Made by a program: the position numbers and the translations under genes. Positions 1,560 through 42,032 of a stretch of 64,000 nucleotides of DNA are shown here, one piece after another. The number at the start of each line of letters is the position of its first letter. Within the stretch, counting starts at the first letter, position 1. Location of the stretch: the NCBI GenBank assembly GCA_016222815.1, contig JACRQE010000005.1:62001-126000 (forward strand). The letters run 5' to 3'. This DNA comes from Candidatus Uhrbacteria bacterium (GTDB lineage: Bacteria > Patescibacteriota > Patescibacteriia > 2-12-FULL-60-25). The notes beneath the pieces are model-generated. The model saw only the letters and a program-made list of their open reading frames with translations, was not told the DNA's origin and did no database searches.

Positions 1560-1685
1560 GTTAGGACTTTCGCGTTTGGCGAATAGCTTCGTTGGACGTT
1601 GCGGTGCTCGACGCCGTATGTCGAATACGGCTTTCTCCGCTCCTCACGTCCGCCTTGCTCTTCATCCAAACGCGAAAGTCCTAAC
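1560..1685. repeat. 126-bp foldback element with perfect 20-bp inverted termini
   Basis: gttaggactttcgcgtttgg (1560-1579) is the exact reverse complement of ccaaacgcgaaagtcctaac (1666-1685); internal hairpin gccgtat-gtcga-atacggc. Confidence 0.85.
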
Positions 1686-1789
1686 AACGATGCCCTCCGC
1701 ACCTCGCCGGCGCCTGGTCACACCGCCGGATCTGTCCGTCAGATCCAGGCCCGCGCGGGATCGGAAATCAGCATCTTAGAGACATTTTC

Positions 1790-5251
<3,462 letters not shown>

Positions 5252-9842: not shown

Positions 9843-10988
9843 ATGTTAGAAAAAAATAATCCAGTCAATCCGCTCGGCAATGCTTATGCAGCGATGGGTT
9901 TGGCGTTCACGGTCATTTCCATCATCGCCTTGATCGTCATAGTAGACGTCAAGACAAGAGCTGAAATCGTAACACAGAGTACGGGGTCCGCTATCTCCAC
10001 CGGTCTGGACGGAGCGGTCAGCGCCAGCGGAACGAACGACTATCTGCAGGTCGTGAATGCGTCTACGTATTCGTGGTCAGATGGTGCTACTTGGTCAGTT
10101 GACATCCGGGCAGAACCGTCAGTTTTGACCTTGAAGAAAGGGAAAAAAGGCACGGTCACTTATACGGTCACGGCCACCAAGGACCAGGGGCCTGTGACGT
10201 TCGGCGTGGAAGGTATGGTATGCGTGAAGAACAACCACACGATGCCGACCGAAGAATTGGTCATCAAGAATGAAGTCCAGGCACAGGACAGGCCGGAGCA
10301 AAGTTTTTACCCCTACGGCAAGGCTGATGTAGACACGAGCGAAAAACCCGTACTCCAGCCTGGAGAGGATTATTGCTACCCGTATGCCACGAGTTTCGAA
10401 CCGGAGTTAAAGTTGAAATACAGGGATTATTCATTGACCATGATTTCTTCCAAAGTACCGGCAAGCGAGGCGCCTTGCCCGAAACCGTTCGTCTGCACAG
10501 CAGCGGTCGAGGTACCGACTGATTTGAACTATCCGGAAAACATCGATCCTAACCAAAGCTCATCCATAATAGTCGACAGCATCCCGCGCGATTTGGCTGA
10601 TGGGGACGGCACGTGCGATGATGGTGATTGGTTCTGCTTCAACTGGCCTGGGCACAGATATGGCGAACCCGAGGAACATGACAGGAAATGTTTCAAATGG
10701 CGCGGACACCACTATGGGACGGACAATAACGAAGATAAAAACAGCAACGGGATATTCTATCGCATCCAGTCAGTAGGTCGCGAGAAAAACGATAACTCCA
10801 AAGATGAGAATAAATGCAAGGAATTGAATAAGCCGAGCCATACGTGGCAATTTACGGACAGCGGAACACAGGTGTACACCGCGACGTACGAATGCGGCAA
10901 AGATGCCGGAACGCAGACCAACACGGTCATCATCCGCGGAACTGACAAGAAGGCCCTAGCTCAAGTCCTGGTGAATTGCGTAAAGTAA
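9843..10988 (+). CDS. Single-pass membrane/secreted protein with an N-terminal TM helix
   Basis: 381 aa; hydrophobic AMGLAFTVISIIALIVIV; Cys-rich ectodomain with two CFxWxGHxYG motifs. Confidence 0.7.
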   Translation: MLEKNNPVNPLGNAYAAMGLAFTVISIIALIVIVDVKTRAEIVTQSTGSAISTGLDGAVSASGTNDYLQVVNASTYSWSDGATWSVDIRAEPSVLTLKKGKKGTVTYTVTATKDQGPVTFGVEGMVCVKNNHTMPTEELVIKNEVQAQDRPEQSFYPYGKADVDTSEKPVLQPGEDYCYPYATSFEPELKLKYRDYSLTMISSKVPASEAPCPKPFVCTAAVEVPTDLNYPENIDPNQSSSIIVDSIPRDLADGDGTCDDGDWFCFNWPGHRYGEPEEHDRKCFKWRGHHYGTDNNEDKNSNGIFYRIQSVGREKNDNSKDENKCKELNKPSHTWQFTDSGTQVYTATYECGKDAGTQTNTVIIRGTDKKALAQVLVNCVK

Positions 10989-26801: not shown

Positions 26802-28634
26802 ATGTCCGAGAAGAAGTCCCGCGTGCAGACACTGAAGATATTTTTGATTTGGACCAACGTAACGGTCGGGATTTTGGGTTTGGGTTGTATCGTGGCCGCA
26901 GGCTCGCTCGTGGCATACGACCGGATGTACGAAGGCAAGTATTTCCCCGGTGTCCGCGTCCTGGGAACCAGGTTGGATGGTTTGACCAAAGATGAGGCTC
27001 GGAAGGCAGTCCAAGATGCGGTGGATGCGGCTATGGCCAAGGGATTGCATTTCAATTACCGCGGTCGCGACGTCACATTGGATGCGATGGCTGTCTCGAC
27101 CGATCCGGATTCTTCGCGTGACCTGGTCAGGTTCGATTATAACCAGGCTTTGGATAAGGCGTTCGAGTTAGGGCACGGTAGCGGCTGGCAGATGAATATC
27201 GCCGAACAGCTCAGGCTCCGGGTGTATCCGATGGATACTCGGGCAATAGTCACCATCGACAGGCCGGCTATCACCGAAGCATTGAAGTTCAACCTTAAAG
27301 ATGACCTGAAGGATTTCAAGAACGCAACCCTGACCATCAATGCGTCGTCGTCGCACCCAGAAGTCACTATCGTCTCCGAACAGGAAGGTCGAACATTGGT
27401 CGTCGAACCGGCATTGGATGAGCTCCAAAAACAGGCTGAAAAATTGGATTTCAAACCCATCAACTTGAGTGACCAAGCCCTCAAACCCACGGTCACGGCG
27501 AGCGATTTGGAACCGGCGATGTCGCAGGTTTTTGGCTACCTTAACCGGCCGACCATCACCTTCATTCATGAAAAGAAGACTTTCGCGGTGACGACTTCCA
27601 CCCTGGCGTCCTGGATAACAGTGACCGGGACAAAGGACCGGATAGGGCTGACCATTGACCCGAGCAAGTTCGCGGCAAGTTTGCCGAACGTGGCGCCGGG
27701 CATCGAGAAAGAGAATAAGAAAGGCACGCTTGTGTTCAAGGATGAGAAGGTGCAGTCGTTCGAGCCGGGCACGGAAGGCGTGGCGTTCGACGCGCCGGCC
27801 ATGCTCGACAAGATTTTGTCCGAATGGCCAACGACTTCGACATTCCCGATTTTGACCAAAATTTTACCCGCGACTTTGGCTGGCGAGGATCCGGAGAAAC
27901 TCGGCATACGCGATCTGCTGGGGGTCGGATATTCGAAGTTCAGCGGTTCGCCGAATAACCGCCGCAAAAATATCGCGCGGGGCACGGAAATCATGAATGG
28001 CCAGATCATCCAGCCGGATGAGGTATTCTCGGTTTCTGAAACCGTGGAGCCGATTGATGCGGCGCATGGGTGGTTCCCGGAGATGGTCATCAAAGGGAAT
28101 GAGACCAAGGCTGAATACGGCGGGGGCTTGTGCCAAATCGGGACCACGGTGTTCCGTGCGGCCATGAAATCCGGCTTGCCCATAATCGAGCGGCAGAACC
28201 ATTCATACCGCGTGGGTTATTACGAACCGGCGGGCACGGATGCCACCATATACGGACCGCATCCTGATTTGCGTTTCAAGAACGACACGGGCCACCCGAT
28301 CTACATCAATGCTTATGGGGTAGGTGATGAGCTGTTCTATGAATTTTGGGGCACCTCGGACGGACGGAAGGGCGAAATCGGACAGTCACATATCTACAAT
28401 CTTGTGCCGCCCCCACCCAAGAAATTGATCGAGACTTTGGATTTGGAACCGGGCAAAAAGAAACGCATCGAGACGGCCCATACGGGCGCTGATGCGGATT
28501 TTACCTACTCAGTGACATTCGCCAGCGGGGAAAAGAAAGAACAGGTTTTCCGCAGCCATTATCGCCCGTGGCAGGAGGTTTGGTTGGTCGGTGTCGAAAA
28601 ACTGTCAGCTACAAGCACAGCCAACGGGGAATAG
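26802..28634 (+). CDS. VanW-family protein with peptidoglycan-binding-like domains
   Basis: NIARGTEIMNGQIIQPDEVFSVSE...EYGGGLCQIGTTVFRAAMKSGLPIIERQNHSYRVGYY; N-terminal TM. Confidence 0.9.
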   Translation: MSEKKSRVQTLKIFLIWTNVTVGILGLGCIVAAGSLVAYDRMYEGKYFPGVRVLGTRLDGLTKDEARKAVQDAVDAAMAKGLHFNYRGRDVTLDAMAVSTDPDSSRDLVRFDYNQALDKAFELGHGSGWQMNIAEQLRLRVYPMDTRAIVTIDRPAITEALKFNLKDDLKDFKNATLTINASSSHPEVTIVSEQEGRTLVVEPALDELQKQAEKLDFKPINLSDQALKPTVTASDLEPAMSQVFGYLNRPTITFIHEKKTFAVTTSTLASWITVTGTKDRIGLTIDPSKFAASLPNVAPGIEKENKKGTLVFKDEKVQSFEPGTEGVAFDAPAMLDKILSEWPTTSTFPILTKILPATLAGEDPEKLGIRDLLGVGYSKFSGSPNNRRKNIARGTEIMNGQIIQPDEVFSVSETVEPIDAAHGWFPEMVIKGNETKAEYGGGLCQIGTTVFRAAMKSGLPIIERQNHSYRVGYYEPAGTDATIYGPHPDLRFKNDTGHPIYINAYGVGDELFYEFWGTSDGRKGEIGQSHIYNLVPPPPKKLIETLDLEPGKKKRIETAHTGADADFTYSVTFASGEKKEQVFRSHYRPWQEVWLVGVEKLSATSTANGE

Positions 28635-28687
28635 TCGAAAGAACCATACTTCGTAGAGCGTCGTATGGGTGCTATACTGTCTTTGTT

Positions 28688-29056
28688 ATGCAGATATTTT
28701 CACCCAATGAATGGGCCAGCACCACGAATGAAGGGCAACTGTCGGTGGACGTGTTCCGCGACGGGGAGGATTTGGTCGTGCGTTCGACCGTGGCCGGAGT
28801 GAAGCCCGAAGATTTGGACATCTCGATCCATGGCGATCTGCTGACCATCAGGGGCAAGCGTTCGATGGTCAAGGAGGTTCCGGAGGACGATTGGTATTAC
28901 CGAGAATGTTTTTGGGGAGCCTTCAGCCGTTCGTTGGTCCTGCCGTACGAGGTGGCTACGGATTTAGCCCAAGCCTCACTCAAGAATGGCGTGCTCGAAA
29001 TCCGCGTCCCGGTGAGGGAACATGGGAAGAAGGTGGATATCGCCTGGGAGGAATAG
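28688..29056 (+). CDS. Small heat shock protein, Hsp20/alpha-crystallin family
   Basis: LSVDVFRDGEDLVVRSTVAGVKPEDLDISIHGDLLTIRGKR ... LKNGVLEIRVP. Confidence 0.9.
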   Translation: MQIFSPNEWASTTNEGQLSVDVFRDGEDLVVRSTVAGVKPEDLDISIHGDLLTIRGKRSMVKEVPEDDWYYRECFWGAFSRSLVLPYEVATDLAQASLKNGVLEIRVPVREHGKKVDIAWEE

Positions 29057-29283: not shown

Positions 29284-30045
29284 ATGTGGCAGAACGTTGT
29301 CGAACGCTTTAAGTCCCTGACCATGGAACAGAGGATAGCCATGGCTGTTCTTGGAATTTGCGGAATTTTGGCCATGGGTCTGTCGGTTTATCATCTGCAG
29401 AATACAATCCGTTCGCCGTTTTTGGTCGACAGGTCCGTGATTGCGGATGCCAAGAAAATCATCGGCGAAACGGAGTCAGAAAAAATCGCGCGGGAGAAGC
29501 GCACGGATACAGACGGGGACGGCTTGGCGGATTGGGACGAATCGAATATCTACCATACGAACCCGAACCTGCGCGACAGCTGCGGCGACGGTTATGCGGA
29601 TAACGTCCGCGTGCTGACCGGAAAGAATCTGGGCTGCGTCAATTCGCCGAACCAGGGCGGCAACCTTGATTATTCGATGGTTGCGGCATCAAGTTCGGAT
29701 TTGTTCGTCACCCCGGATGGGACGAACCTTTTGAACGGACCGTTGCAGGATGCGAGTTCGTCAGCGGGTCTTGTGCCGGTGGGCGACGTCAGTGCGCAAG
29801 CGGCCGGTGTATTGGCTCGCGATCCGGTCACGATCCGCCAAGCGCTGATCGAAAGCGGCAAAGTCGACATCAACGAAATCAACCAACTAACGGACCAGCA
29901 GCTGCTGGATATCTATGACGCGGCCGTAGAAGCAGATACGCGAAGCCTGAATCCCGCGAATGCGGCACAGGGTACGCAGACCAAACCGGATGCGGGGAGC
30001 CAGCCGTTCCTCGGGATCCCGCAAACAACCACAACCCAAAAATAG
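29284..30045 (+). CDS. Single-TM protein with thrombospondin type 3/dockerin-like Ca-binding repeat
   Basis: RTDTDGDGLADWDESNIYHTNPNLRDSCGDGYADNVRVLTGKNLGC; N-terminal TM. Confidence 0.75.
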   Translation: MWQNVVERFKSLTMEQRIAMAVLGICGILAMGLSVYHLQNTIRSPFLVDRSVIADAKKIIGETESEKIAREKRTDTDGDGLADWDESNIYHTNPNLRDSCGDGYADNVRVLTGKNLGCVNSPNQGGNLDYSMVAASSSDLFVTPDGTNLLNGPLQDASSSAGLVPVGDVSAQAAGVLARDPVTIRQALIESGKVDINEINQLTDQQLLDIYDAAVEADTRSLNPANAAQGTQTKPDAGSQPFLGIPQTTTTQK

Positions 30046-30046
30046 T

Positions 30047-33000
30047 ATGTTCGACCATCGCAAACTGTTCCGCGCGGTAGCTAAGACGGCCATGGCCACG
30101 AGCTTGGTCATGTTGCTCGTGATGTCGTTCGGCCTCACGGCACCGGAAGCCAAGGCGCAGGATGCGGAGGGCGATTATGGGGAGGCGGCACAGGCGGCAT
30201 CGGCAATGGACTGCATGTTTGCTGAAAAAGCGAATGTTGCAGCGCCCTACGGTAACGGAACTTGGATTGCTCACACACGTGAGTGCTATTACCTTGATAT
30301 CGTCAAAGCACGTATCGCCCAAGCGCGCGGCATGTGGCAATTTTTAGTGGTCAAGGCGCTGTTGAGCGTTATGCATAACGCGACCATCGCTTTCAGCCAG
30401 CAGATGGCCAATTGGGCGCTTGAGGGTTTTCACGGAAAACCGGCTTTTTGGGAAAAAGGGTTCAAACAGATGATGCAGGATGCGGCGCTTGAGACCATAA
30501 ACCGATTCATAGATGAGGCTGACAAGAGTTGGGGACTGGGATTGTGCCAAAAACCGGATTTTGCTTTCAAGATGTCGCTCGGTTTGGGCTTGCCGGGAAC
30601 CATCCCGCCTCCTGATTGTACATTGCAGACGATCGCTAAGAATTACACGGAAGTCTATCAATCTCTGTCAGCGCGCGAGGTGGCTACTACCTTGCTCAAG
30701 GGCGTGGACACGGGAGGCAATGACCTGGATGTTTCGTTGCGGGCCCACAGCATGTTGGCTGAGCGCATCAACGATGAGTTGACGGGCGATACTTATGACC
30801 GCAACGAGACGCGCGGCCTTAAGTATGTGAAGAAAGGCCCATTCAGCAATATCATCAAAACTCCGGCAGTGACCGTGGATGAAACTCTTCGGGCATCAAA
30901 TGTCGCCAGAACCACCAAGGAGGTGAACATGGCGGAAATGAACACGTTGGCTTTGTCAGCCATGTGGACCGGCATCAAACAGCTGCCGCTCGTGGCCGGC
31001 ATGACGGTTTTGACAACCGTGGCCAATGCCCTTCTGCAGAAGGCTTTGGCCGCTTTGATGGAACCTGAAGGAAGTTCTGATGATGTCACGGCTCTTGATC
31101 TGACCAGCCCGTTCGCAGAGGTGCAGAACCAGCCGCGCAAAACAAGCGCGCTCCAAAAAGCATTCACGGACATCATCACGCCGAACCTGATAAGCCAGGA
31201 AAATCTGGATTTGATCAGCGAGATGTCTCTCTGCACCGACCCGCGCGGATATTGGAACTGCACCATGGACGAAGGTATGGGTTCAGCACTGCGCGGCGTG
31301 ACCGAAAACGGCGCTTACACCGTACTGCGGGCATCGGGTTTCGGTGGCGGGACCGAATATCTGCATCCGGATTGGGAGCTCATCCCGGTGACGGACACAA
31401 AGAACGATCAGGATGTCGGCTGTTACCAACGCTCCTATTGCGCCTCGAATCTGGCGAAACTCCGGTTCGCCCGCATCCTGCCAATCGGCTGGGAATTGGC
31501 GGCCAATTCACCGTTCAACGTCAAGGCCAACGGCAAGTACGTGACATTAGGCGAGGTCATGGCCGGGTACAACGACTGCAACGCGAACAATGCGGTGGAC
31601 GCGCAGCACAAGTGGTGCCACCTGATAGATCCGGCCTGGGTTTTGACTTCGCCTCCGTTCCAGTGCCAGCTTAAAGGATATGGCGATACTTTGCAGGTTC
31701 CGGACATGAATGTCCGCCTGCAGGAGTGCAGTGATCCGGTTTCGTGTCTGCAACGCGACGATAAAGGAGTGTGCACCGGCGGTTATGGTTACTGCTTATC
31801 TGATAAGACGGTCTGGCGGTTTGCGGCTGATTCGTGCGAAGAGAAATTCGTGAGTTGTCGGACGTACCAGTCACGCGCCGAGGGTTTCCAGCAGGGACAA
31901 ACGGTTTCGTACCTGCGCAACACTTTGGATTACGGGGCGTGCAACCAGGACAACGTGGGTTGTATGTATTACGCCACGATCCATGACGTGAGCACGACGA
32001 CGACCGGCAAATGGCTGAACAACACGGAGTGGGTCAAGAACTCCAAGGGCCTGAACGCAGGGATCATCCTGGACAAGGCCGGCACGTTCGGCACGCCTCG
32101 CGTATATTTCGATTCCAAAGTCCAGGCGTGCAACGCTTCGGCAGACGGTTGTACAAAGGTCATGCAGTTCACACCAGGACAGCCGGCGCTGAACTTGGTG
32201 CGCAACGGATCATTTGAATCAGTCCAACAGAATAAACCTGAATTCCTGGACGGTTGGGTAAAAGGCATAAACGAAGCGCCTTATTCTTCGGACTTGTTCC
32301 AATCGGACAACGGTTTCGTGGCGCAAGACGGCGCACAGAGCCTGGAGATGAAAACGCCGGTTAATTTCTTGGCGATTCCGTGGCAGTGGGTATGGATGGC
32401 TCCGACGAGGAATTACGTCCTGTCGTTCTATGCCAGAGCCAACGATGCGGCTGGAGCGCATAAAGCTTCGGTTTCGGTACTGTTGTACAAGTGGCCGGTC
32501 ATCGCGACCAGCCAGGTGGTGAGCAGCAACACGAAGTATTACCGGAGCGCGAACTGCAATTCAGTGGAGGCCGTGCCGGTCAAGCTGAATAACGTCCAAG
32601 CCACGACAATCTTCAATAGCGCCGGAGTAGGCAGCGAAAATTTGACCGGCGACTGGCAAAAATTCACCTGCGAATTCGTATCAAACAAAGATGCTTATTT
32701 CGGGCAGGTCATCGTGGGCGGAGTGAACGCAGCCATCGACTCGATCCAACTCGAAGAAGGCGATGCGCCTACGGATTTCACGGATGGGTTGGCTTCGGGC
32801 CTCAAATCGACCCACCTGAAATTGGCTCCTGAAGAATATCTGTGCACTGGCGACGACAAAGTGGACCGCAAGGAGTGCGCGAGTTTCGCCCGGGTCTGCC
32901 GCCAGACCGATGCTGGCTGCCAGGGCTACACGGAAGTAGGGGGCGGGGACCAGACAGAAATCCCGGCCATCCTGTCGAGCAACGACGCATGCCCGAATTC

Positions 33001-36000
33001 ATGCGTGGGATATGCCGAATACCGGAAACTGGCTTCAGCCTTTGACCTGGTGAACACGGGAGCGGCTAACCCGGTAAACGACCCGTTGGATGACCCGAAC
33101 GATGATTCCAAGGCGACGTTCGTGCCAAAATATGCCCAATCCTGCACGGCGGCACAGAACGGGTGCGAGGAGTTCACGAACATCGAATCGTCCGCGGCCG
33201 GCGGGGAAGAGAAAATCTACCTGAACTACGCCCGGGCCTGCCAAAAGCCGAGCGATAAATCACAGACCTATTTCACCTGGGAAGGTTCGGAGACCACGGG
33301 ATACCAACTGCGTACCTGGAGTTTGATCAAGGGCTCGAGCGGAGCGCCGGAGCTCCTGCAGAAAGCCGGGCCGGACGGCGTGCTCAAAGATCCGACCGAT
33401 TGCAATGACGTGACATGGAAGGAAGGGGCGGATGCGGATTGCCGTCAGTTCTACGACGAAGTGGGTAAGACCTACTATGCCTACTTCTCGCAGACCATCT
33501 TCTCGTCCGTGGATTGCCGCGATTACCGCAAGAACAATTCCAACACCGATGACTGCAGTAAGACGGGCGGTGATTACCAATCGGGCACCCAGGATTGCAT
33601 CTACCACATCCTAGAGAGCGAGAGCGGCAGGTGCGAAGCGGTGAATGCGGGGTGCCGAGGATATATCGGAACAACGGGACGGAATACTGCGACGGTCGTT
33701 GCCGAACAGTTCGCGAGTGCGACCAAGAGCCAGTTCTACACCGATAGCAATAATACGCAGATCAAGATTTCGACCGAGGCTCTGCAGGTCGGGGACCATT
33801 CGCTACAAATCGGGGGTGTGGGAGTGCTCACGGCTGGTATCGACTTCCCAGCTACGACCAATACCTTATATACGGTCAATTTCTGGTATAAGGGTTTGCC
33901 CCAAATTCCGGCCGACATGGGCAAGACAGTTACTTTGAAAGTGGACGGCGACGTGGTCGGCAGTTTCAAAGCCTCAAATGACTGGCGGCGATTCGAAGTA
34001 GGTCCTTTCCGCGCCAAGGCTACGGCGACCTCGACCCTGGTTTGGGAAGGATTGCCCAACGTGTCTTACTTGGACAACGTGACCGTGGTCCGTCTGCAGG
34101 ACGTGGTGTACGTGAAGAAGAATTCGTGGACCATACCGGCCGAGTGCGACCAGACACCCGAAGGCATACCGCAACCGCAAGCCATGTTGGGATGCCGCGA
34201 GTTCCGCGACCGCATGGGTCGGGTGGCTGATGTGCGCCAGTTCTCGCGGTTGTGCAGATATGCCGACGTGGGTTGCACGGGCTTCATCGATACGCGCAAT
34301 TCGGACGACGCTTACGGACAAGATTTCATACTTAAGGGTTTGGACAAACCGGCGGCTACGGGGAAGTTGTGGGACAATCTATATGCCGGGACGGTCACGA
34401 CGACCCGCGGGGCTGACCGTTACATCTACGTCATCGACGAACCGGCGGCACATTGCAACGCAGACCAGGCTTCGTGCCGGGCTTTCGGCAAGCCGGTGTT
34501 TGATGAGTTCGGCGCGCCGAGTTCGACATACGAAACCGTGTACATGAAGGACGACGTCACGAAGTACGTGGACGGAGGGGGAGAGCCGGACATGCTGTGC
34601 CGACCGAGCGAACTGTTCTGCGACAAGTTCACGAGCGGACCAGTGGTGTCGTATTTCCGCGATCCGTTCAAGCATGTGATGGAATGGAAAGACAGAGTCA
34701 CTACATCTTCGACCAACCCGGTCCTGCCGGAAGGCGAATATTCGGGCTGGTTCGTGAAGGGTATCGAGCCGCCGACCGCAGGATATCCGGACAAGAACGC
34801 CAACGGCAATACTTTCCTGCTGGAATTCGCAGCTTCGCCGGGTTATCGCGGCTGGACGGCCGAATGTCCGGCAGAACAGTCGGAATGCACCGAATACCGC
34901 GATCCGGCCGACGATTCGGACCAGGCCCATCCGTTGGGCAAACCGTATTTCTTCATCGCGAACGACGCTTTGGACACCAAGTCGTGCAACGGGAAGGTGG
35001 ATACCCTATCCGGCTGCGTGCTGTTCCGGGACATGAACAGCAACCAACTGCCGTTCAGCACGGGCGCCAGTTACGCCAAAGCGCATGCCCAGGGCGATTC
35101 GGCCGTGAGTCCGGTGAACTGCACGACCGATCCGGACAGCGACTATTGCAAGAACAGCAAGGGGCGATGCACGAACCTGCGTTATGTCAATTGTGCAGGC
35201 TTGGTCTGCAGCTTGAAAACGTGGGAGAGTTTCATATCAAGCCATTTGGGTGCGAGTTGTGACAGCAATGCTGATTGTTCGAACATGTTGCCGCCCGGCG
35301 CTACGAACGGTTTCGCGGTTTCCGGTACTTGCCAGAAGAACGACGCCAATCTGGTCATCAAAGTAAAAATGGACCGTGATTGTAAGACTTGGCTCGGTTG
35401 TTCTTCGGCCGAAACGGTATATGACCCATCACAACAGAAGTATGTGGATTTGTGCACCAACCTGGCGGTCTGCGACCAGGTCGGAGGATCGGCTAACAAG
35501 AATTTCTGCGGGCATTACGTGGACCGGGTGAACGGGCCGGATAAGGTCTTGGCCCAAGGGCGGTTCCTGGACATCAACAACTACATGTCGCGAGTTACGG
35601 GTTACGGCAAGCCGGATTATTCCGGCTATTCGATACCGAACCACTTCCAGGTCGCGGACTTAGGCATGCGGCGCATGGGGTATGAACTCATGGCGTCACG
35701 TCCGAGCAATATCAAGGACAGGCTGTACAACGATTTCCGGCTGACGGCCAATGTGCCCATGAGTTCGGGAGCCGGAAGTCCGGCTTGGTATGCGGTCGAT
35801 TATCCGGACAATAAATTCCCGTATTTAAGCCTGTGCCGCCAACCGCAGACGGGTCTCATCGGATATAAGGTAGCGGGCGAGCAGCCGGTCATGTGCCATC
35901 TCTCAATCGAGAAACCGTATACGACTTTGCTTAGCGAGATCTTCGGCCAGAGCCAGTCCAACCCGAATAATGTGCAACAGGCTGCGACTGTGTTCGAACA

Positions 36001-39000
36001 GGGCGCGAATCTATCTACCGACAACCAGCTTAATCGCGCTTTCCCGGCAGTGGAATGCCGGGCCCATCCGGACGCCGGTTCGCCGTTCAGCAACAAGTTC
36101 ATCAAAGAATGGGACATGAGCGTGGATCCGCCGGTACCGAAGTCCTATATCGAGGGCTATAACAACATCGATTACTGCCAATACGGCGAGGATTGCGATT
36201 GCAGCTACCGCAAGATTTCGTACAGCGGCAAGCCAAAGTACTTCTCGGCCTTCGGCGGGGGAGCGCCGGCCGGCATCTGCGTGGGCGGCCAGGATGACGG
36301 GAAAGCGTGCGATCCGGGGATCGTGGTTTCGGGACAGCCGGCTGACAGCGGTCTGACGAGAGAAGATACGGAAAAGGGGGAGATCAAAGGTTCGTTGAAC
36401 AATTCAAGCGACCCGAATCCGAGCCTGAATTCATGCCGCCAGGGCAGCTGTATAGCCTACACTTCGGATAGCTTGGTGCGCGGCATACCGGGGCAGTGCT
36501 TGCTCCGCGATTTCAGCCGCAAGTTGGGAGGATCGCCGGACCTGAATCCTTGCCTGATATGGAATCCGACGCCGGTGCTGGTCGGACAAAATGACCGTTA
36601 CCATTACCAGCCCACCGCCGGCTATCTGCCAAATGCGAATTCGGGGGAATATTACTGTTTGGCTAACGCCAAAGAACCGAGGAAATTGGAATCTTCGGCC
36701 CAGAATTGTTTACCGAGCATAAATTTCGATCCAATCAACGGAGGACTGAACGGGTGGTACAACTGCGGCGCGTACGTTGATTCGGACGCAAAACTCGTGG
36801 CAAACGATGCTCCTATGGGCAGCCTCGTGGCCACGCCGCCTGGAAAAATTTCAATCTTCAATTACGACGAATGTCTGGTCATGGATTCGAACGCGGTAAC
36901 CGACGGAAGCGTACCATGGCCTTGGGAGTTCGGGTGGACCCAGCCGGATTGGTATGAGAGATTCTGCGGCGGTGGTGCCTCGACGCTGGATGGCGTGGCC
37001 GCAAACGGAAGCGACAGCGCAATGGCTTGCGCCGGTGTTCGCAACGCTTATGGCGGCGGCGCTTGGGGATTAGCGTCGGATTCGAAGGCCGGACGCTGGA
37101 TAACGACCGGTCGCGGGGCTTCCAGGAATTATGCCGAGTATTTCATCAAGTTCAACCCTGCGGCGTGGGCCAAGTGGCTGTTGAACAATGGGGCGCCGTC
37201 AGCCGAGCAAGTTTCGCAGGCCTCCTATGAGAATAATTTCACCTACTTTGATTTTAAGCCCATGTTCAAGGCGGCGAACGGCGGCGGGACTTGGGCCTGC
37301 GGCATGAGCGGGTGGTGGGTGGATGAGTTTCAGGTGACGGCAAGCGGAGAGGGGTGGAATACGGCCGCCAAGACCATGATCAAAGGTATAATGAACGACT
37401 TCAAGACCCTAACCCCGCAAAACTTCGGTTATCTGAAGGACGAAAAGGGGACCAAGCTTCAGCGACTGCCGTGCATGTTCGAAGAAGATAAGGCCAAGGG
37501 CGCCGACAGCGAGGGACTGTGCTACTACAAATACTGGGAAACCGGATACAGGGCAGAGGGCCAGAGACAGTTCCGGATGTTTTGGGATTCGTTCGGCGGA
37601 CCACAACTTTTGGATCCCAAGAATGTCTTGTTTGCCGAGTCGGATTCGAGCAAGCCGTTCTTCTCTATCCGTGCCATGTTCGAAGATACCTATCAGGAAG
37701 AAAACGCCATACCGGAATCACAGATGGATCCAAGCGGCGTGCAGTTGAGCGGACCTTTCCGTTTCGTGGGTTGGTGGATTACGGCTTCGTTCCCTGGAGC
37801 AGCGAGCGAAAGATATATCTACATGACCATGGATGTGGGCAATGCCGACGTCTGCCGCGAGGTGGCGCGCGTCAAATCGCCGACCTCCAACGAAGACGCG
37901 GCGTTCACTGACCGCATTTGGGAAGGCGGAAATTTCAGCGTGCCGATCCTGGGATTCATCTTCAGCCAGGGTAATTCGCCGTTCGGCGCCGCACTCAACA
38001 CCCGGGACATCGGACAAGAGCCGTTGTACCAACTTGGCGCACAGACCAAGCAACAGACGTATAAAGCGGCGGCCAATCGACCGACTTGGTTGGCGTCGGG
38101 TGCCAGCTATGCGCGAACTTTGCCCATGCCCATCGCTAACTGGGGTTATCTGACCAACATCTTCGCCAAGGTTTATCAGGTCTACAAATATCACGACCAG
38201 CCAGTCGGTCAGTCTTCTTGGGCATGTACGGATGGCCCGCGGTTTGGGGCGCGTTGTCCGGATATGTCTACGGAAAAAGTGTTGGAAGCTGATGGGACCA
38301 CGCATTATAAGGACAAGGCTGAATGCCAATCAACCGGTTGTTCGTTCCCGTTGAAGGCCGATGGATCCACGTCTGCACCGGATATCTCGACCAAATTCTG
38401 CGGTTGGGCCGGCACGTGCAATACTCAGAAGGTAGATCCGGCCCAAGGCCAAGCTTTGTGCAACTCCATGTCTGGCGTAAATGCCGGCCTGGCTTGTTCG
38501 GGAAGTTTGGGCGGTACGCAGAGCTACCATATATGCCATCTCGCGCCTGTTAAGAATGTCGGCGGCGAGTTGGTGCCGCAATATACTTCTTGCGAATTCA
38601 ATTCCAGCGGCTGGGAAAAAGTCGAAGGCCAGGATTTGTATAAGAACAAAGCGGATAATAAACAATGGGGAAGGAAATCGGCCGCGATGCGGGGGGCTTT
38701 CCGCTGCGCCGCAGGAGCTGTCACTATGCCGGATGGGGATTTAGCTTGGTGCCGCGCCGATAGCAGCGGCAAGCCATCGCCGGATTGTCCGGTCCGGGTG
38801 GTTGGAGGGGTAGATTCCAAATGTGATTGTCCGCTTGGTCAAACTGCCGGCGGCCACTGCAAAGATTCTAATGGTAATTCTGGAGGCCCGGCTGGAAAAT
38901 GCACAAACGGGTACGAAATGGCTGCTTGTAAGAAAGATTCGGATTGTCAGTTCACCTGGAAAGAATGGTGGGGCGTGGATTTCAAGAAGAATTCAGGGCC

Positions 39001-41209
39001 TCCAGATAGACCGCAGTACTACTATAAGTCTGGGTATGCAGATGCCGCTAGCAATATCTACGCATGGCAGACGCTTCCGGACAGTAATAACAACCAAAAT
39101 GCTTGGGGTTATACGACAGACTTGAATAACGTGGGTCAGGCGAGGGGTACATTGTGGTGGACCGGAAATTGGTGGTATAAGCAAAATAATTGGTTGGGAA
39201 CGGATTTACAGGATTCAACCGTGGATATTGCTCGCAAGGATTTGACCGGATCGAGACTCGTGTGGCGCGGGTATGATTACGACGGTCCGATAAACACTGA
39301 CGTCCGTTTTCCAGGGGTATATGTAGTCGGTAGACTTTCAGAGATTAAGGGACCGGGAAATAATGACCTCGAAATATTGATTCCCGGCCATTGTGAACGA
39401 CCGCCAGTACAGAGCCCGATCACAGACGCTGAATTGTGCAAGAAGATGGGAAGTAATTTGGATTGCGTCAATTATACGCCTGATTTGCCCTATATATCGG
39501 TCGTATCAGGAACGATATATGATTCAGGAGGCACGTACGATAGGAATAATTCAAGCGGTGCGACTAATGTGGCTCGCTACTATGGCGATCCGGATCAGCC
39601 GTGGAAGTCGGGAACCTGTGATTACGGCGTATACGAAAATCGGAGTTGCAGCCGTGATGCGGATTGTGCGCCGTTCAACACCAGGAAAATCGACCAGAAT
39701 GCCGCCAGCTTCTATTGCAATCCGGTGAGCGTGAAAGATGGACAAGGTAATCTGGTTCCGATTACGGGCGGAGCGACATATTATGAAGGTGATTTGGCGG
39801 GAAAGACCATTGATGTCTACTGCAAAGCAAACCCTGATAAATGCGCCAGTTTGAGCACGAATTGTCTGGCGACGACGGGTGATCCGAAGTCGACGGATCT
39901 GGATAAGGACAACAACATGTGCACCCATTATTCCGGCTACTATCCGCGGCCTGACATCTGCGGAGGCGACCTGAATAAAGCGCAGTGCCTGACGGCTATC
40001 CAACAACAAGATGCTGCCGCAACGACTATCCTGAAGTCATTTGACCTCCGCCAAGTCATGCCGCCGACAGACGTGAGTTCCGGTCTGCATCTGCCGCCGT
40101 ACATAGCTTCAAAGAATCCGGGAGTGGATGCCTCCAAATACGCCGCCAACTACTCATATATCGCTTATTACGCTCCGCGACCGCCGACCATCGCGGCGCC
40201 GGATACGAGCAAACAGTGCCCGGGGGCGGGCCAGTGTCCGATATCCCAGGTCGGAGCCTTCAGCTTGGAGGGTGCGTCGGAAGGCAAAGTGGCGTACGTC
40301 GGCGGCCAGGTGTTGAGCAATATCCGCTTCTACGGCTGGGCCACGGATAACCAGATGGGCATCAAAGATATGTGGGTGGATTGGGGGGATAAGACGATCC
40401 AGGAATTCCATGACGCCCGCATGAAGAACAAGAAACCGATATGCGGCGCAACTAACGAATGCGAATTCATCCCGGGATTGGGCTGCAACACGAGTAATGA
40501 CTGTCCGCCGGCTGGAGGCAAGTGCGTGCCGGTAGGATTCTGCGCGGCCAAACCACAGGTCCAGTGCATGAGCGATACAGATTGTTATGAAGCCGGCGTG
40601 GATACTGGAGATAAGTGCCAAAGCAGACTGACCTTCGGCAACAGCAGCGCGGCATGCGAACAGAATTATTTCGAGTTCGCGCACGTCTACACCTGCCCCA
40701 GGGAGTCAGCGAGCATGTCAGCATGCCAAACCGGCGCAGGGGCAGAAATCAAGAGGTGTTCGCGGGATAACACCAGGACATGCACTTCCGATGCCGGTTG
40801 TGCGATCGGTGACCAGTGTTTGGCAGGGTTGGCTCCTCCGGAAGGTTGCTTCGATAAAGTCAACAACGCCTGCCGCTTTACGCCGCGCGTGCTGATCAAA
40901 GATAACTGGGGTTGGTGTTCCGGCGAGTGCCGCCAGGAGAACCTGGGCGGAGGGAAATTGGGTCCGGGTTTCAACTTCCCGTTGAATCTCTACATCCAGA
41001 CGAATTATAACAACATCCTGCTGCAGAATGGTGGCTGTTATGACGCGACCGGGGAAACGATCAACAGGGCGCCGTCCCAATCGCTGTCGTTGGGCCATAA
41101 CGGGGTGACTACCGGATCGAATATGTGCGATCCGTACAAGACCGCCGGCACAAGTTGGCGACCGTGGATCGTGTTCAAAGGGGCAATGCAACTCGGGGTG
41201 GGGCAATAA
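30047..41209 (+). CDS. Giant secreted Cys-rich modular protein (3720 aa)
   Basis: Uninterrupted frame; signal peptide ending APEAKAQ; repeated C-x6-C-x2-[FY]; NGSFE jelly-roll-like and PKD-like segments; starts right after the 29284-30045 stop. Confidence 0.9.
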   Translation: MFDHRKLFRAVAKTAMATSLVMLLVMSFGLTAPEAKAQDAEGDYGEAAQAASAMDCMFAEKANVAAPYGNGTWIAHTRECYYLDIVKARIAQARGMWQFLVVKALLSVMHNATIAFSQQMANWALEGFHGKPAFWEKGFKQMMQDAALETINRFIDEADKSWGLGLCQKPDFAFKMSLGLGLPGTIPPPDCTLQTIAKNYTEVYQSLSAREVATTLLKGVDTGGNDLDVSLRAHSMLAERINDELTGDTYDRNETRGLKYVKKGPFSNIIKTPAVTVDETLRASNVARTTKEVNMAEMNTLALSAMWTGIKQLPLVAGMTVLTTVANALLQKALAALMEPEGSSDDVTALDLTSPFAEVQNQPRKTSALQKAFTDIITPNLISQENLDLISEMSLCTDPRGYWNCTMDEGMGSALRGVTENGAYTVLRASGFGGGTEYLHPDWELIPVTDTKNDQDVGCYQRSYCASNLAKLRFARILPIGWELAANSPFNVKANGKYVTLGEVMAGYNDCNANNAVDAQHKWCHLIDPAWVLTSPPFQCQLKGYGDTLQVPDMNVRLQECSDPVSCLQRDDKGVCTGGYGYCLSDKTVWRFAADSCEEKFVSCRTYQSRAEGFQQGQTVSYLRNTLDYGACNQDNVGCMYYATIHDVSTTTTGKWLNNTEWVKNSKGLNAGIILDKAGTFGTPRVYFDSKVQACNASADGCTKVMQFTPGQPALNLVRNGSFESVQQNKPEFLDGWVKGINEAPYSSDLFQSDNGFVAQDGAQSLEMKTPVNFLAIPWQWVWMAPTRNYVLSFYARANDAAGAHKASVSVLLYKWPVIATSQVVSSNTKYYRSANCNSVEAVPVKLNNVQATTIFNSAGVGSENLTGDWQKFTCEFVSNKDAYFGQVIVGGVNAAIDSIQLEEGDAPTDFTDGLASGLKSTHLKLAPEEYLCTGDDKVDRKECASFARVCRQTDAGCQGYTEVGGGDQTEIPAILSSNDACPNSCVGYAEYRKLASAFDLVNTGAANPVNDPLDDPNDDSKATFVPKYAQSCTAAQNGCEEFTNIESSAAGGEEKIYLNYARACQKPSDKSQTYFTWEGSETTGYQLRTWSLIKGSSGAPELLQKAGPDGVLKDPTDCNDVTWKEGADADCRQFYDEVGKTYYAYFSQTIFSSVDCRDYRKNNSNTDDCSKTGGDYQSGTQDCIYHILESESGRCEAVNAGCRGYIGTTGRNTATVVAEQFASATKSQFYTDSNNTQIKISTEALQVGDHSLQIGGVGVLTAGIDFPATTNTLYTVNFWYKGLPQIPADMGKTVTLKVDGDVVGSFKASNDWRRFEVGPFRAKATATSTLVWEGLPNVSYLDNVTVVRLQDVVYVKKNSWTIPAECDQTPEGIPQPQAMLGCREFRDRMGRVADVRQFSRLCRYADVGCTGFIDTRNSDDAYGQDFILKGLDKPAATGKLWDNLYAGTVTTTRGADRYIYVIDEPAAHCNADQASCRAFGKPVFDEFGAPSSTYETVYMKDDVTKYVDGGGEPDMLCRPSELFCDKFTSGPVVSYFRDPFKHVMEWKDRVTTSSTNPVLPEGEYSGWFVKGIEPPTAGYPDKNANGNTFLLEFAASPGYRGWTAECPAEQSECTEYRDPADDSDQAHPLGKPYFFIANDALDTKSCNGKVDTLSGCVLFRDMNSNQLPFSTGASYAKAHAQGDSAVSPVNCTTDPDSDYCKNSKGRCTNLRYVNCAGLVCSLKTWESFISSHLGASCDSNADCSNMLPPGATNGFAVSGTCQKNDANLVIKVKMDRDCKTWLGCSSAETVYDPSQQKYVDLCTNLAVCDQVGGSANKNFCGHYVDRVNGPDKVLAQGRFLDINNYMSRVTGYGKPDYSGYSIPNHFQVADLGMRRMGYELMASRPSNIKDRLYNDFRLTANVPMSSGAGSPAWYAVDYPDNKFPYLSLCRQPQTGLIGYKVAGEQPVMCHLSIEKPYTTLLSEIFGQSQSNPNNVQQAATVFEQGANLSTDNQLNRAFPAVECRAHPDAGSPFSNKFIKEWDMSVDPPVPKSYIEGYNNIDYCQYGEDCDCSYRKISYSGKPKYFSAFGGGAPAGICVGGQDDGKACDPGIVVSGQPADSGLTREDTEKGEIKGSLNNSSDPNPSLNSCRQGSCIAYTSDSLVRGIPGQCLLRDFSRKLGGSPDLNPCLIWNPTPVLVGQNDRYHYQPTAGYLPNANSGEYYCLANAKEPRKLESSAQNCLPSINFDPINGGLNGWYNCGAYVDSDAKLVANDAPMGSLVATPPGKISIFNYDECLVMDSNAVTDGSVPWPWEFGWTQPDWYERFCGGGASTLDGVAANGSDSAMACAGVRNAYGGGAWGLASDSKAGRWITTGRGASRNYAEYFIKFNPAAWAKWLLNNGAPSAEQVSQASYENNFTYFDFKPMFKAANGGGTWACGMSGWWVDEFQVTASGEGWNTAAKTMIKGIMNDFKTLTPQNFGYLKDEKGTKLQRLPCMFEEDKAKGADSEGLCYYKYWETGYRAEGQRQFRMFWDSFGGPQLLDPKNVLFAESDSSKPFFSIRAMFEDTYQEENAIPESQMDPSGVQLSGPFRFVGWWITASFPGAASERYIYMTMDVGNADVCREVARVKSPTSNEDAAFTDRIWEGGNFSVPILGFIFSQGNSPFGAALNTRDIGQEPLYQLGAQTKQQTYKAAANRPTWLASGASYARTLPMPIANWGYLTNIFAKVYQVYKYHDQPVGQSSWACTDGPRFGARCPDMSTEKVLEADGTTHYKDKAECQSTGCSFPLKADGSTSAPDISTKFCGWAGTCNTQKVDPAQGQALCNSMSGVNAGLACSGSLGGTQSYHICHLAPVKNVGGELVPQYTSCEFNSSGWEKVEGQDLYKNKADNKQWGRKSAAMRGAFRCAAGAVTMPDGDLAWCRADSSGKPSPDCPVRVVGGVDSKCDCPLGQTAGGHCKDSNGNSGGPAGKCTNGYEMAACKKDSDCQFTWKEWWGVDFKKNSGPPDRPQYYYKSGYADAASNIYAWQTLPDSNNNQNAWGYTTDLNNVGQARGTLWWTGNWWYKQNNWLGTDLQDSTVDIARKDLTGSRLVWRGYDYDGPINTDVRFPGVYVVGRLSEIKGPGNNDLEILIPGHCERPPVQSPITDAELCKKMGSNLDCVNYTPDLPYISVVSGTIYDSGGTYDRNNSSGATNVARYYGDPDQPWKSGTCDYGVYENRSCSRDADCAPFNTRKIDQNAASFYCNPVSVKDGQGNLVPITGGATYYEGDLAGKTIDVYCKANPDKCASLSTNCLATTGDPKSTDLDKDNNMCTHYSGYYPRPDICGGDLNKAQCLTAIQQQDAAATTILKSFDLRQVMPPTDVSSGLHLPPYIASKNPGVDASKYAANYSYIAYYAPRPPTIAAPDTSKQCPGAGQCPISQVGAFSLEGASEGKVAYVGGQVLSNIRFYGWATDNQMGIKDMWVDWGDKTIQEFHDARMKNKKPICGATNECEFIPGLGCNTSNDCPPAGGKCVPVGFCAAKPQVQCMSDTDCYEAGVDTGDKCQSRLTFGNSSAACEQNYFEFAHVYTCPRESASMSACQTGAGAEIKRCSRDNTRTCTSDAGCAIGDQCLAGLAPPEGCFDKVNNACRFTPRVLIKDNWGWCSGECRQENLGGGKLGPGFNFPLNLYIQTNYNNILLQNGGCYDATGETINRAPSQSLSLGHNGVTTGSNMCDPYKTAGTSWRPWIVFKGAMQLGVGQ

Positions 41210-41215
41210 ATATCT

Positions 41216-41244
41216 GTAGGGGCGCGGTTTCCGCGCCCCTTTCG
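41216..41244. repeat. Family A repeat acting as a terminator hairpin
   Basis: gtaggggcgcggtttccgcgccccttt. Confidence 0.65.
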
Positions 41245-41291
41245 TAAAACGCAAATCCCCTCCGAGAAGTGGAGGGGATGGTGGGACTGAT

Positions 41292-42032
41292 TTATCTCAC
41301 GAGCGAGATCGGCGGAACGTTCTTGCGGTTGAGCAAGATGTGGGCGTGCCGGAAGGCGGTGAAGTGCTGGATCGTGAGCGGGCCGGTCGATCGTTGCTGG
41401 ATGTAGCGCTTGAGCGCAGACTTGATGTCGCGCTCCACGGTGATTGTGCCCTCGAATGGCGAGGCAAGCAGGTACTCCATGACCTTGTCGTCGAAATCCG
41501 GGACGCTGCTGCCGTCAGGCATAGAAAGCCGACTGCGGATGAGGGAGATGATCGTGGCGTGATCGGCTTCGCGTTCGGCCCAAGTCGGCCAGGAGAGCGG
41601 CAGAGGGGCGCAGGCGTCGTGGAACTCCTTGATCCAACCGGTGCCGTGGGTGACCTGACTGCTGCCGGGTTGGACCGCCGCTATGACTACGGGAAAGTTG
41701 GCGAGGCGGTAGTCCACGATCAGTTGCTGATGGCTCAAGGGCAATTCTTCGCCTTTGACGATGAGCAGTGAGGTGGATTCGTCGCGTTCCAGCTCGTGGG
41801 TCTTGGGGAGCTTGCCGTTCAGCACGCGGTAGTAGTCGGAGCGGCGGTGGCTGGCCGCGATCTTGGTGAAGAAGCTGATGAGCTCGAGGCGGTTTTCCAG
41901 CGATGCGACCACGGGGATGATCCACGAATGGATGGCATTGGCTTGGGCGTTGCCGACGATCTGCTGCATGGCCTGGCTTTTATCCACCAGCGGAAAGGAT
42001 TTGCTAGGTTTTTCGGGTCCGATCTGATGCAT
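41292..42032 (-). CDS. Hypothetical protein (246 aa)
   Basis: Long ORF with plausible composition, no family recognised. Confidence 0.55.
   Translation of the reverse strand: MHQIGPEKPSKSFPLVDKSQAMQQIVGNAQANAIHSWIIPVVASLENRLELISFFTKIAASHRRSDYYRVLNGKLPKTHELERDESTSLLIVKGEELPLSHQQLIVDYRLANFPVVIAAVQPGSSQVTHGTGWIKEFHDACAPLPLSWPTWAEREADHATIISLIRSRLSMPDGSSVPDFDDKVMEYLLASPFEGTITVERDIKSALKRYIQQRSTGPLTIQHFTAFRHAHILLNRKNVPPISLVR

Follow-up and report, generated by a model that had tools for sequence, protein, structure and literature searches.

A class-wide, single-copy giant cysteine-rich protein of ABY1 bacteria, encoded next to a type IV secretion operon in most lineages examined

Type IV secretion systems (T4SSs) of Patescibacteria derive from conjugation machines of monoderm bacteria, mostly without relaxases; in a Saccharimonadia epibiont, growth as an epibiont requires T4SS genes (PMC12102498). 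The same survey reports adhesins such as PrgB as not detected in Patescibacteria T4SS loci, and a divergent VirB8 mainly in ABY1 (PMC12102498). Large cysteine (Cys)-rich extracellular proteins, exported and proposed to serve in attachment, have been described in Peribacteria, where they average 1,655 aa, occur several per genome, vary between strains, weakly resemble Myxococcus Cys-rich repeats and are accompanied by one disulfide-formation protein (PMC4736985). TraN of F-type conjugation is a Cys-rich, disulfide-dependent recipient-contact protein with 20 conserved Cys (PMC7555446). Here, we analyzed a 64-kb stretch of DNA (contig JACRQE010000005.1, positions 62,001 to 126,000; hereafter the window), in which the open reading frame (ORF) at 30047-41209 (+) encodes a Cys-rich protein of 3,720 aa, referred to below as the giant. 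The genome containing the window is labeled G000, and L-, G- and C-numbers denote loci, genomes and contigs, respectively.

The giant represents a class-wide, class-specific and single-copy protein family of ABY1. Named records that match it closely are from Uhrbacteria, Kerfeldbacteria and 'Parcubacteria', whose class we take to be ABY1 according to GTDB. Using residues 1-2918 as the query, a relative was identified in 55 of the 58 genomes of the window's family and class. A search of Candidate Phyla Radiation (CPR) genomes with a profile of the conserved block recovered the family in 180 of 192 ABY1 genomes (four matches are weak, E>1e-13), and all 12 ABY1 genomes lacking a match are assemblies of at least 50 contigs. 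A phylum-wide sample of 291 genomes comprised 24 ABY1 genomes, all of which match, and 267 genomes of other classes, 25 of which match solely in the carbohydrate-binding part of the profile. These hits were rejected as homologues in other CPR classes since the carbohydrate-binding module (CBM) alone was matched; apart from this module, no homologue was found in the 267 genomes outside ABY1, a sample in which Peribacteria were not singled out. No giant relatives were found in the viral collection. An apparent loss of the giant in G054 was also rejected, as one contig end carries a fragment of the gene and a different one carries virB6, indicating a contig break. Members of the family range from 2,358 to 4,641 aa, and G000 has one copy. 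We found no description of this family in the open-access literature, although absence there is not proof that it is undescribed.

Genomic context further links the family to the T4SS. Outside the window's family, 21 genomes had enough DNA for linkage to be counted; they are related to each other and are therefore not independent trials. A VirB6-like gene is located downstream of the giant within 5 kb in 16 of them and at 5-8 kb in two more. The gap between the two genes can be very short, namely 7 bp (L077), 10 bp (L088), about 40 bp (L052) and about 70 bp (L048), and the two shortest spacings suggest that the giant is co-transcribed with the T4SS operon. The gene order is giant, VirB6-like, one or two unknown proteins, PrgI, TrsD-like and VirB4, often followed by a small transmembrane protein and ComF; Pfam or NCBIfam matches verified two of these assignments, PrgI and VirB4 (VirB4 NF045971, 348 bits). 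Among the 58 genomes searched for the giant, VirB4 was detected in 56 and the VirB6-like protein in 55, so that the T4SS genes match the giant in their distribution.

Several features of this operon were also observed. In nearly all loci examined, ABY1 VirB4 is split between a TrsD/VirB4-N-like protein of 226 aa and a VirB4 ATPase of 633 aa (L058 12690-15726, G000:C8). The proteins between VirB6-like and PrgI (330-750 aa, ORF606 group; L078 552-2801, L080 12503-14239 and L058 10868-12688) are conserved throughout ABY1 and have no Pfam family; certain lineages have them fused, others divided in two. A single-transmembrane protein of about 210 aa follows virB4 (L058 15729-16370, L059 2433-3065 and L060 3284-3916) and is possibly the divergent VirB8 of PMC12102498.

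Analysis of the ORF itself revealed an uninterrupted frame whose product contains 142 Cys (3.8%). It occupies 17.4% of the window, in agreement with the figure of about 17% given by a sequence-only reading made before this study. A longer ORF could start from an alternative ATG at 29960; nevertheless, homologues align to the start at 30047, and the stop of the upstream gene (orf253, at 30045) is one base before this ATG. Judged by motif and hydropathy, the signal peptide is the sole hydrophobic segment of the giant, with likely cleavage after residue 37, and no lipobox, LPxTG or later transmembrane segment was found by the same means. A C-terminal LPxTG is absent from all 31 giants compared, and a single LPMTA about 120 residues before the end was observed only in L056. 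The CPR origin implied by the sequence-only reading is supported, as are the signal peptide and the lack of a C-terminal anchor that it noted.

The cysteines of the giant are strongly patterned. C-x6-C occurs 16 times (shuffle mean 4.2) and C-x6-C-x2-[FY] nine times (shuffle mean 0.35), and none of 2000 shuffles reached either count. All nine C-x6-C units listed by the sequence-only reading are present where it placed them, eight of them with F or Y at the expected position and one (residues 695-702) with V instead of the aromatic residue; one more unit, at residues 597-607, had been missed. Conservation was scored in a set of 31 giants that represent 20 families. Both Cys of nine units are kept in all 31 proteins, and unit 695 is kept in 30 and lost as a whole in one; no half-lost unit was observed. 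The aromatic residue is near-invariant in most units and is found in about half of the sequences for units 695, 1403 and 1470. For 41 Cys of the window protein, conservation extends to 30 or more of the 31 giants, and several other, variable Cys are gained or lost as perfect pairs (459/465, 933/944, 1170/1184 and 1930/1950). Such co-loss would be expected from disulfides, though invariant columns carry little information. With respect to the enzymes needed, G000 encodes a VKOR-DsbA fusion of 371 aa (L096 2254-3369, G000:C2) and five DsbA-like matches, an oxidative-folding capacity that is large for a reduced genome of 1.3 Mb. DsbA-like matches were found in all 24 ABY1 genomes (2-7 per genome) and VKOR above the cut-off in 16 of them; therefore, these cells are able to form extramembrane disulfides. 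Considering pair co-conservation and the presence of DsbA/VKOR, the two Cys of each C-x6-C unit may pair with each other.

Comparison of the giants also delineated several regions (Table 1). The N-terminal domain occurs throughout the class, yet its sequence is poorly conserved (mean column identity of 22% in the alignment), and neither it nor the most conserved block has a detectable relative in Pfam or PDB; in the genomes searched, matches to the conserved block are, the CBM part aside, confined to ABY1. The jelly-roll binding modules suggested between the Cys units could be recognized as two CBM4/16/22-like modules by PDB profiles, by Pfam in relatives and, for the second, by Foldseek. Pfam CBM_4_9 was detected in module 1 of 7/20 relatives (best E=1.2e-7) and in module 2 of 7/19 relatives (best E=1.5e-9); at full length, it was found in 7 of 15 relatives (best E=1.5e-15), and the complete window protein gave no match. 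Foldseek matched module 2 to 4xup, 4xuo and 2zex (E~1e-6) on a part of the model with a predicted local distance difference test (pLDDT) score of 60-76. One relative has an inserted PA14 domain. Except for CBM_4_9 and PA14, no Pfam family, including adhesin domains, was found at E<=0.01 in full-length relatives, and the domain scans detected no catalytic domain in any relative. A few other candidates were discarded: the PKD-like appearance of the C-terminal region was seen by eye only and has no Pfam or PDB match, a match of the giant to HlyC was below the cut-off (11.9 vs 25 bits), and Foldseek matches to toxin-binding components, phage fibres and ephrin receptors reflect the generic jelly-roll fold rather than kinship.

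At every locus whose upstream end is assembled, the giant is immediately preceded by a homologue of the upstream gene orf253; in L056 this homologue is a short variant without the TSP3 repeat. The Pfam TSP3_bac score of orf253 is 24.7 bits (cut-off 25), and its C-terminal segment has the pattern L-R-x-x-L/'LTDQQLLDIYD'. Judging from its sequence and position, orf253 is probably a membrane tether or partner of the giant and co-transcribed with it, and co-occurrence with this membrane-anchored protein suggests that the giant is retained at the cell. In most fetched members of the window's family, two further genes (VanW/peptidoglycan-binding, window 26802-28634, and Hsp20-like, window 28568-29056) adjoin the orf253-giant pair, sometimes inverted.

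Given its single copy across the class and, in most lineages, its position at the head of the T4SS operon, the giant is a strong candidate for the part of this system that touches the host. With modest confidence, we favor the view that it is an extracellular part of the ABY1 T4SS, stapled by disulfides and able to bind glycans, and that it mediates contact with the host. The giant would leave the cell via Sec, and DsbA/VKOR-type oxidases would close its Cys pairs into short staples. It would then stay on the cell surface beside the chromosomal MPF_FATA-like T4SS, probably held by the membrane-anchored, Ca-binding orf253, where its CBM-like jelly-roll modules could bind glycans on a host cell or a neighbouring one and in this way bring the secretion channel into contact. 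We infer the disulfide pairing, the surface location, the tethering by orf253, the glycan binding and the function in host contact or secretion; the exported surface or host-contact protein imagined by the sequence-only reading is of the same inferred kind and has now gained independent support from T4SS linkage and class-wide conservation. A more speculative extension, which we put forward tentatively and consider less probable, is that the giant is an obligatory, class-defining extracellular module of the ABY1 T4SS, a glycan-reading and disulfide-stapled contact protein of 2.4-4.6 kaa which, with its TSP3 membrane partner, takes the place of the adhesins and outer parts of other T4SSs and sets epibiont host range through variable inserted domains.

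Several observations weigh against a T4SS role of the giant. In three of the 21 genomes, the available DNA shows no VirB6-like linkage. Within the window's own family, the nine members fetched have the orf253-giant pair near nusA/yidC or other genes, away from the T4SS, and the T4SS operon of G000 is on another contig (L058 8078-16370, G000:C8). The housekeeping gene ksgA/rsmA is found in the same ancestral block as the giant, and adjacency alone is therefore no proof of shared function. Pfam, NCBIfam and PDB scans of the giant and its relatives revealed no homologue among known T4SS components or adhesins. Moreover, AlphaFold models of residues 930-1645 (6 sequences, mean pLDDT 39) and 30-740 (5 sequences, mean pLDDT 35) were unusable except for the one CBM region mentioned above.

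The loss of T4SS linkage across the whole window family and the presence of ksgA in the block would also fit a structural envelope protein, either S-layer-like or a wall-associated scaffold, that has no direct T4SS role and has merely inherited its synteny. A class-wide single copy, a large and rigid Cys-rich ectodomain and CBMs are compatible with envelope or polysaccharide binding, and the window family places the giant between envelope-type genes (VanW and orf253) and nusA/yidC. On the other hand, near-zero spacing to virB6 recurs in families that diverged deeply, wall-binding domains such as SLH or LysM were not found, and S-layer proteins are usually far smaller and less Cys-rich. We regard a pure envelope role as rather unlikely, although it deserves serious consideration.

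If the giant does act with the T4SS, it might be an extracellular structural part of the channel, such as a giant VirB5/TraN-like tip or conduit, instead of a separate adhesin. In many lineages the T4SS operon begins with it, the mature N-termini of several members read (G)LPV(I/V)D and by eye resemble VirB5/TrbJ, and the mating-pair protein TraN of F-type systems is likewise rich in Cys, 20 of which are conserved (PMC7555446). However, the (G)LPV(I/V)D likeness is missing from the window protein, and neither the 21 N-termini nor the NCBIfam scan gave a match to VirB5/TrbJ or another T4SS profile. The VirB5/TrbJ identity suggested by (G)LPVxD was accordingly rejected, with no profile match in the 21 N-termini at E<=0.5, and a channel part appears improbable. 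Still less credible is a T4SS or Sec substrate released as an enzyme or effector to the host. The signal peptide without an anchor would permit release, and CBMs often accompany glycan-active enzymes; yet no relative has a catalytic domain, the co-occurring orf253 points to retention, and such strong conservation in single copy is unusual for effectors.

Table 1. Positions in the window of the giant, its predicted parts and adjoining features
Feature	Positions	Strand	Basis or remark
orf253	29284..30045	+	N-terminal transmembrane segment, TSP3/EF-type Ca-binding repeat DTDGDGLADWDE, C-terminal small helical segment
Giant Cys-rich secreted protein, 3,720 aa	30047..41209	+	
Sec signal peptide, AKA|Q cleavage after residue 37	30047..30157	+	hydropathy and motif
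N-terminal mainly helical domain, residues ~80-430	30284..31336	+	alignment; helical in low-confidence model
Most conserved block, residues ~380-642	31184..31972	+	alignment; KLRxARIIPIGWELAANS, HLIDPNWVL, YGYC, Cys cluster 540-604
Extra C-x6-C-x2-Y unit CEEKFVSCRTY, residues 597-607	31835..31867	+	Cys in 31/31 giants
C-x6-C unit 1 CNQDNVGCMYY, residue 632	31940..31972	+	
C-x6-C unit 2 CNASADGCTKV, residue 695	32129..32161	+	
CBM4/16/22-like jelly-roll module 1, residues ~714-920, NLVRNGSFE	32186..32806	+	PDB profile matches, best E=5.7e-4
C-x6-C unit 3 CRQTDAGCQGY, residue 951	32897..32929	+	
C-x6-C unit 4 CTAAQNGCEEF, residue 1033	33143..33175	+	
C-x6-C unit 5 CEAVNAGCRGY, residue 1196	33632..33664	+	
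CBM4/22-like jelly-roll module 2, residues ~1214-1352	33686..34102	+	PDB profile match 4xup, E=4e-9
C-x6-C unit 6 CRYADVGCTGF, residue 1403	34253..34285	+	
C-x6-C unit 7 CNADQASCRAF, residue 1470	34454..34486	+	
C-x6-C unit 8 CRPSELFCDKF, residue 1518	34598..34630	+	
C-x6-C unit 9 CPAEQSECTEY, residue 1607	34865..34897	+	
Variable central/C-terminal region, residues ~1640-3300	34964..39943	+	lineage-specific lengths; PA14 domain inserted in one relative
Partly conserved C-terminal region, residues 3300-3712	39944..41182	+	alignment; VDWGDG ... FxFxHxY, DNWGWC
Further GC-rich hairpin	~41216-41241		read by eye
Stem-loop 3' of giant, possible terminator	41255..41279	.	scan called - strand; terminator-like site count not above shuffles

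Some additional genes were observed in the window and in G000. A 246-aa ORF between the giant and nusA (window 41292-42032, -) has homologues of 30-34% identity in two congeners and no Pfam match, and a 381-aa exported-looking protein (window 9843-10988, +) gave Fn3-like/invasin-like matches that were all sub-threshold. Elsewhere in G000, a second giant secreted ORF of at least 3,412 aa (G000:C6 ~291763-302000; L095 5764-16002) is Cys-poor (10 Cys), shows a weak CBM-like match and is preceded by three secreted ORFs of 310, 331 and 1,122 aa.

A T4SS-linked giant would offer one concrete protein to label, purify or block in ABY1, which is a large part of the CPR, and would provide a class-specific surface marker for imaging or enrichment of uncultured cells. 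These tiny and probably host-dependent bacteria, with genomes of about 1 Mb, retain it as a single-copy gene for a protein of 2.4-4.6 kaa.

Among described systems, the operon beside the giant corresponds to the MPF_FATA-like T4SS of Patescibacteria (Quinonero-Coronel et al. 2025, PMC12102498), with PrgI/VirB3, TrsD-like, VirB4 and VirB6-like proteins and ComF nearby. The sections of that paper on T4SS repertoire and context name no giant-like protein, and the giant, being unannotated, would be among its unannotated grey genes. PrgB and the adhesins of Gram-positive conjugation offer another parallel, in that a surface adhesin with a proposed role in cell contact is encoded with an MPF_FATA system; in contrast to PrgB, the giant is Cys-rich and has neither a C-terminal LPxTG nor a recognizable adhesin domain. 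It is also two or more times larger than PrgB. TraN is set apart from the giant by its smaller size, about 600 aa, and by its location in the outer membrane of diderms. The two modules embedded in the giant belong to the CBM_4_9 (CBM4/16/22) family, and here they sit in a non-enzymatic Cys-rich protein, not on a glycoside hydrolase. Like the Peribacteria proteins (PMC4736985), the giant is large, exported, very Cys-rich and from a CPR lineage; unlike them, it forms one conserved single-copy family of 2.4-4.6 kaa. The ABY1 giant thereby joins the synteny of the Patescibacterial T4SS with the Cys-rich attachment-protein theme of Peribacteria.
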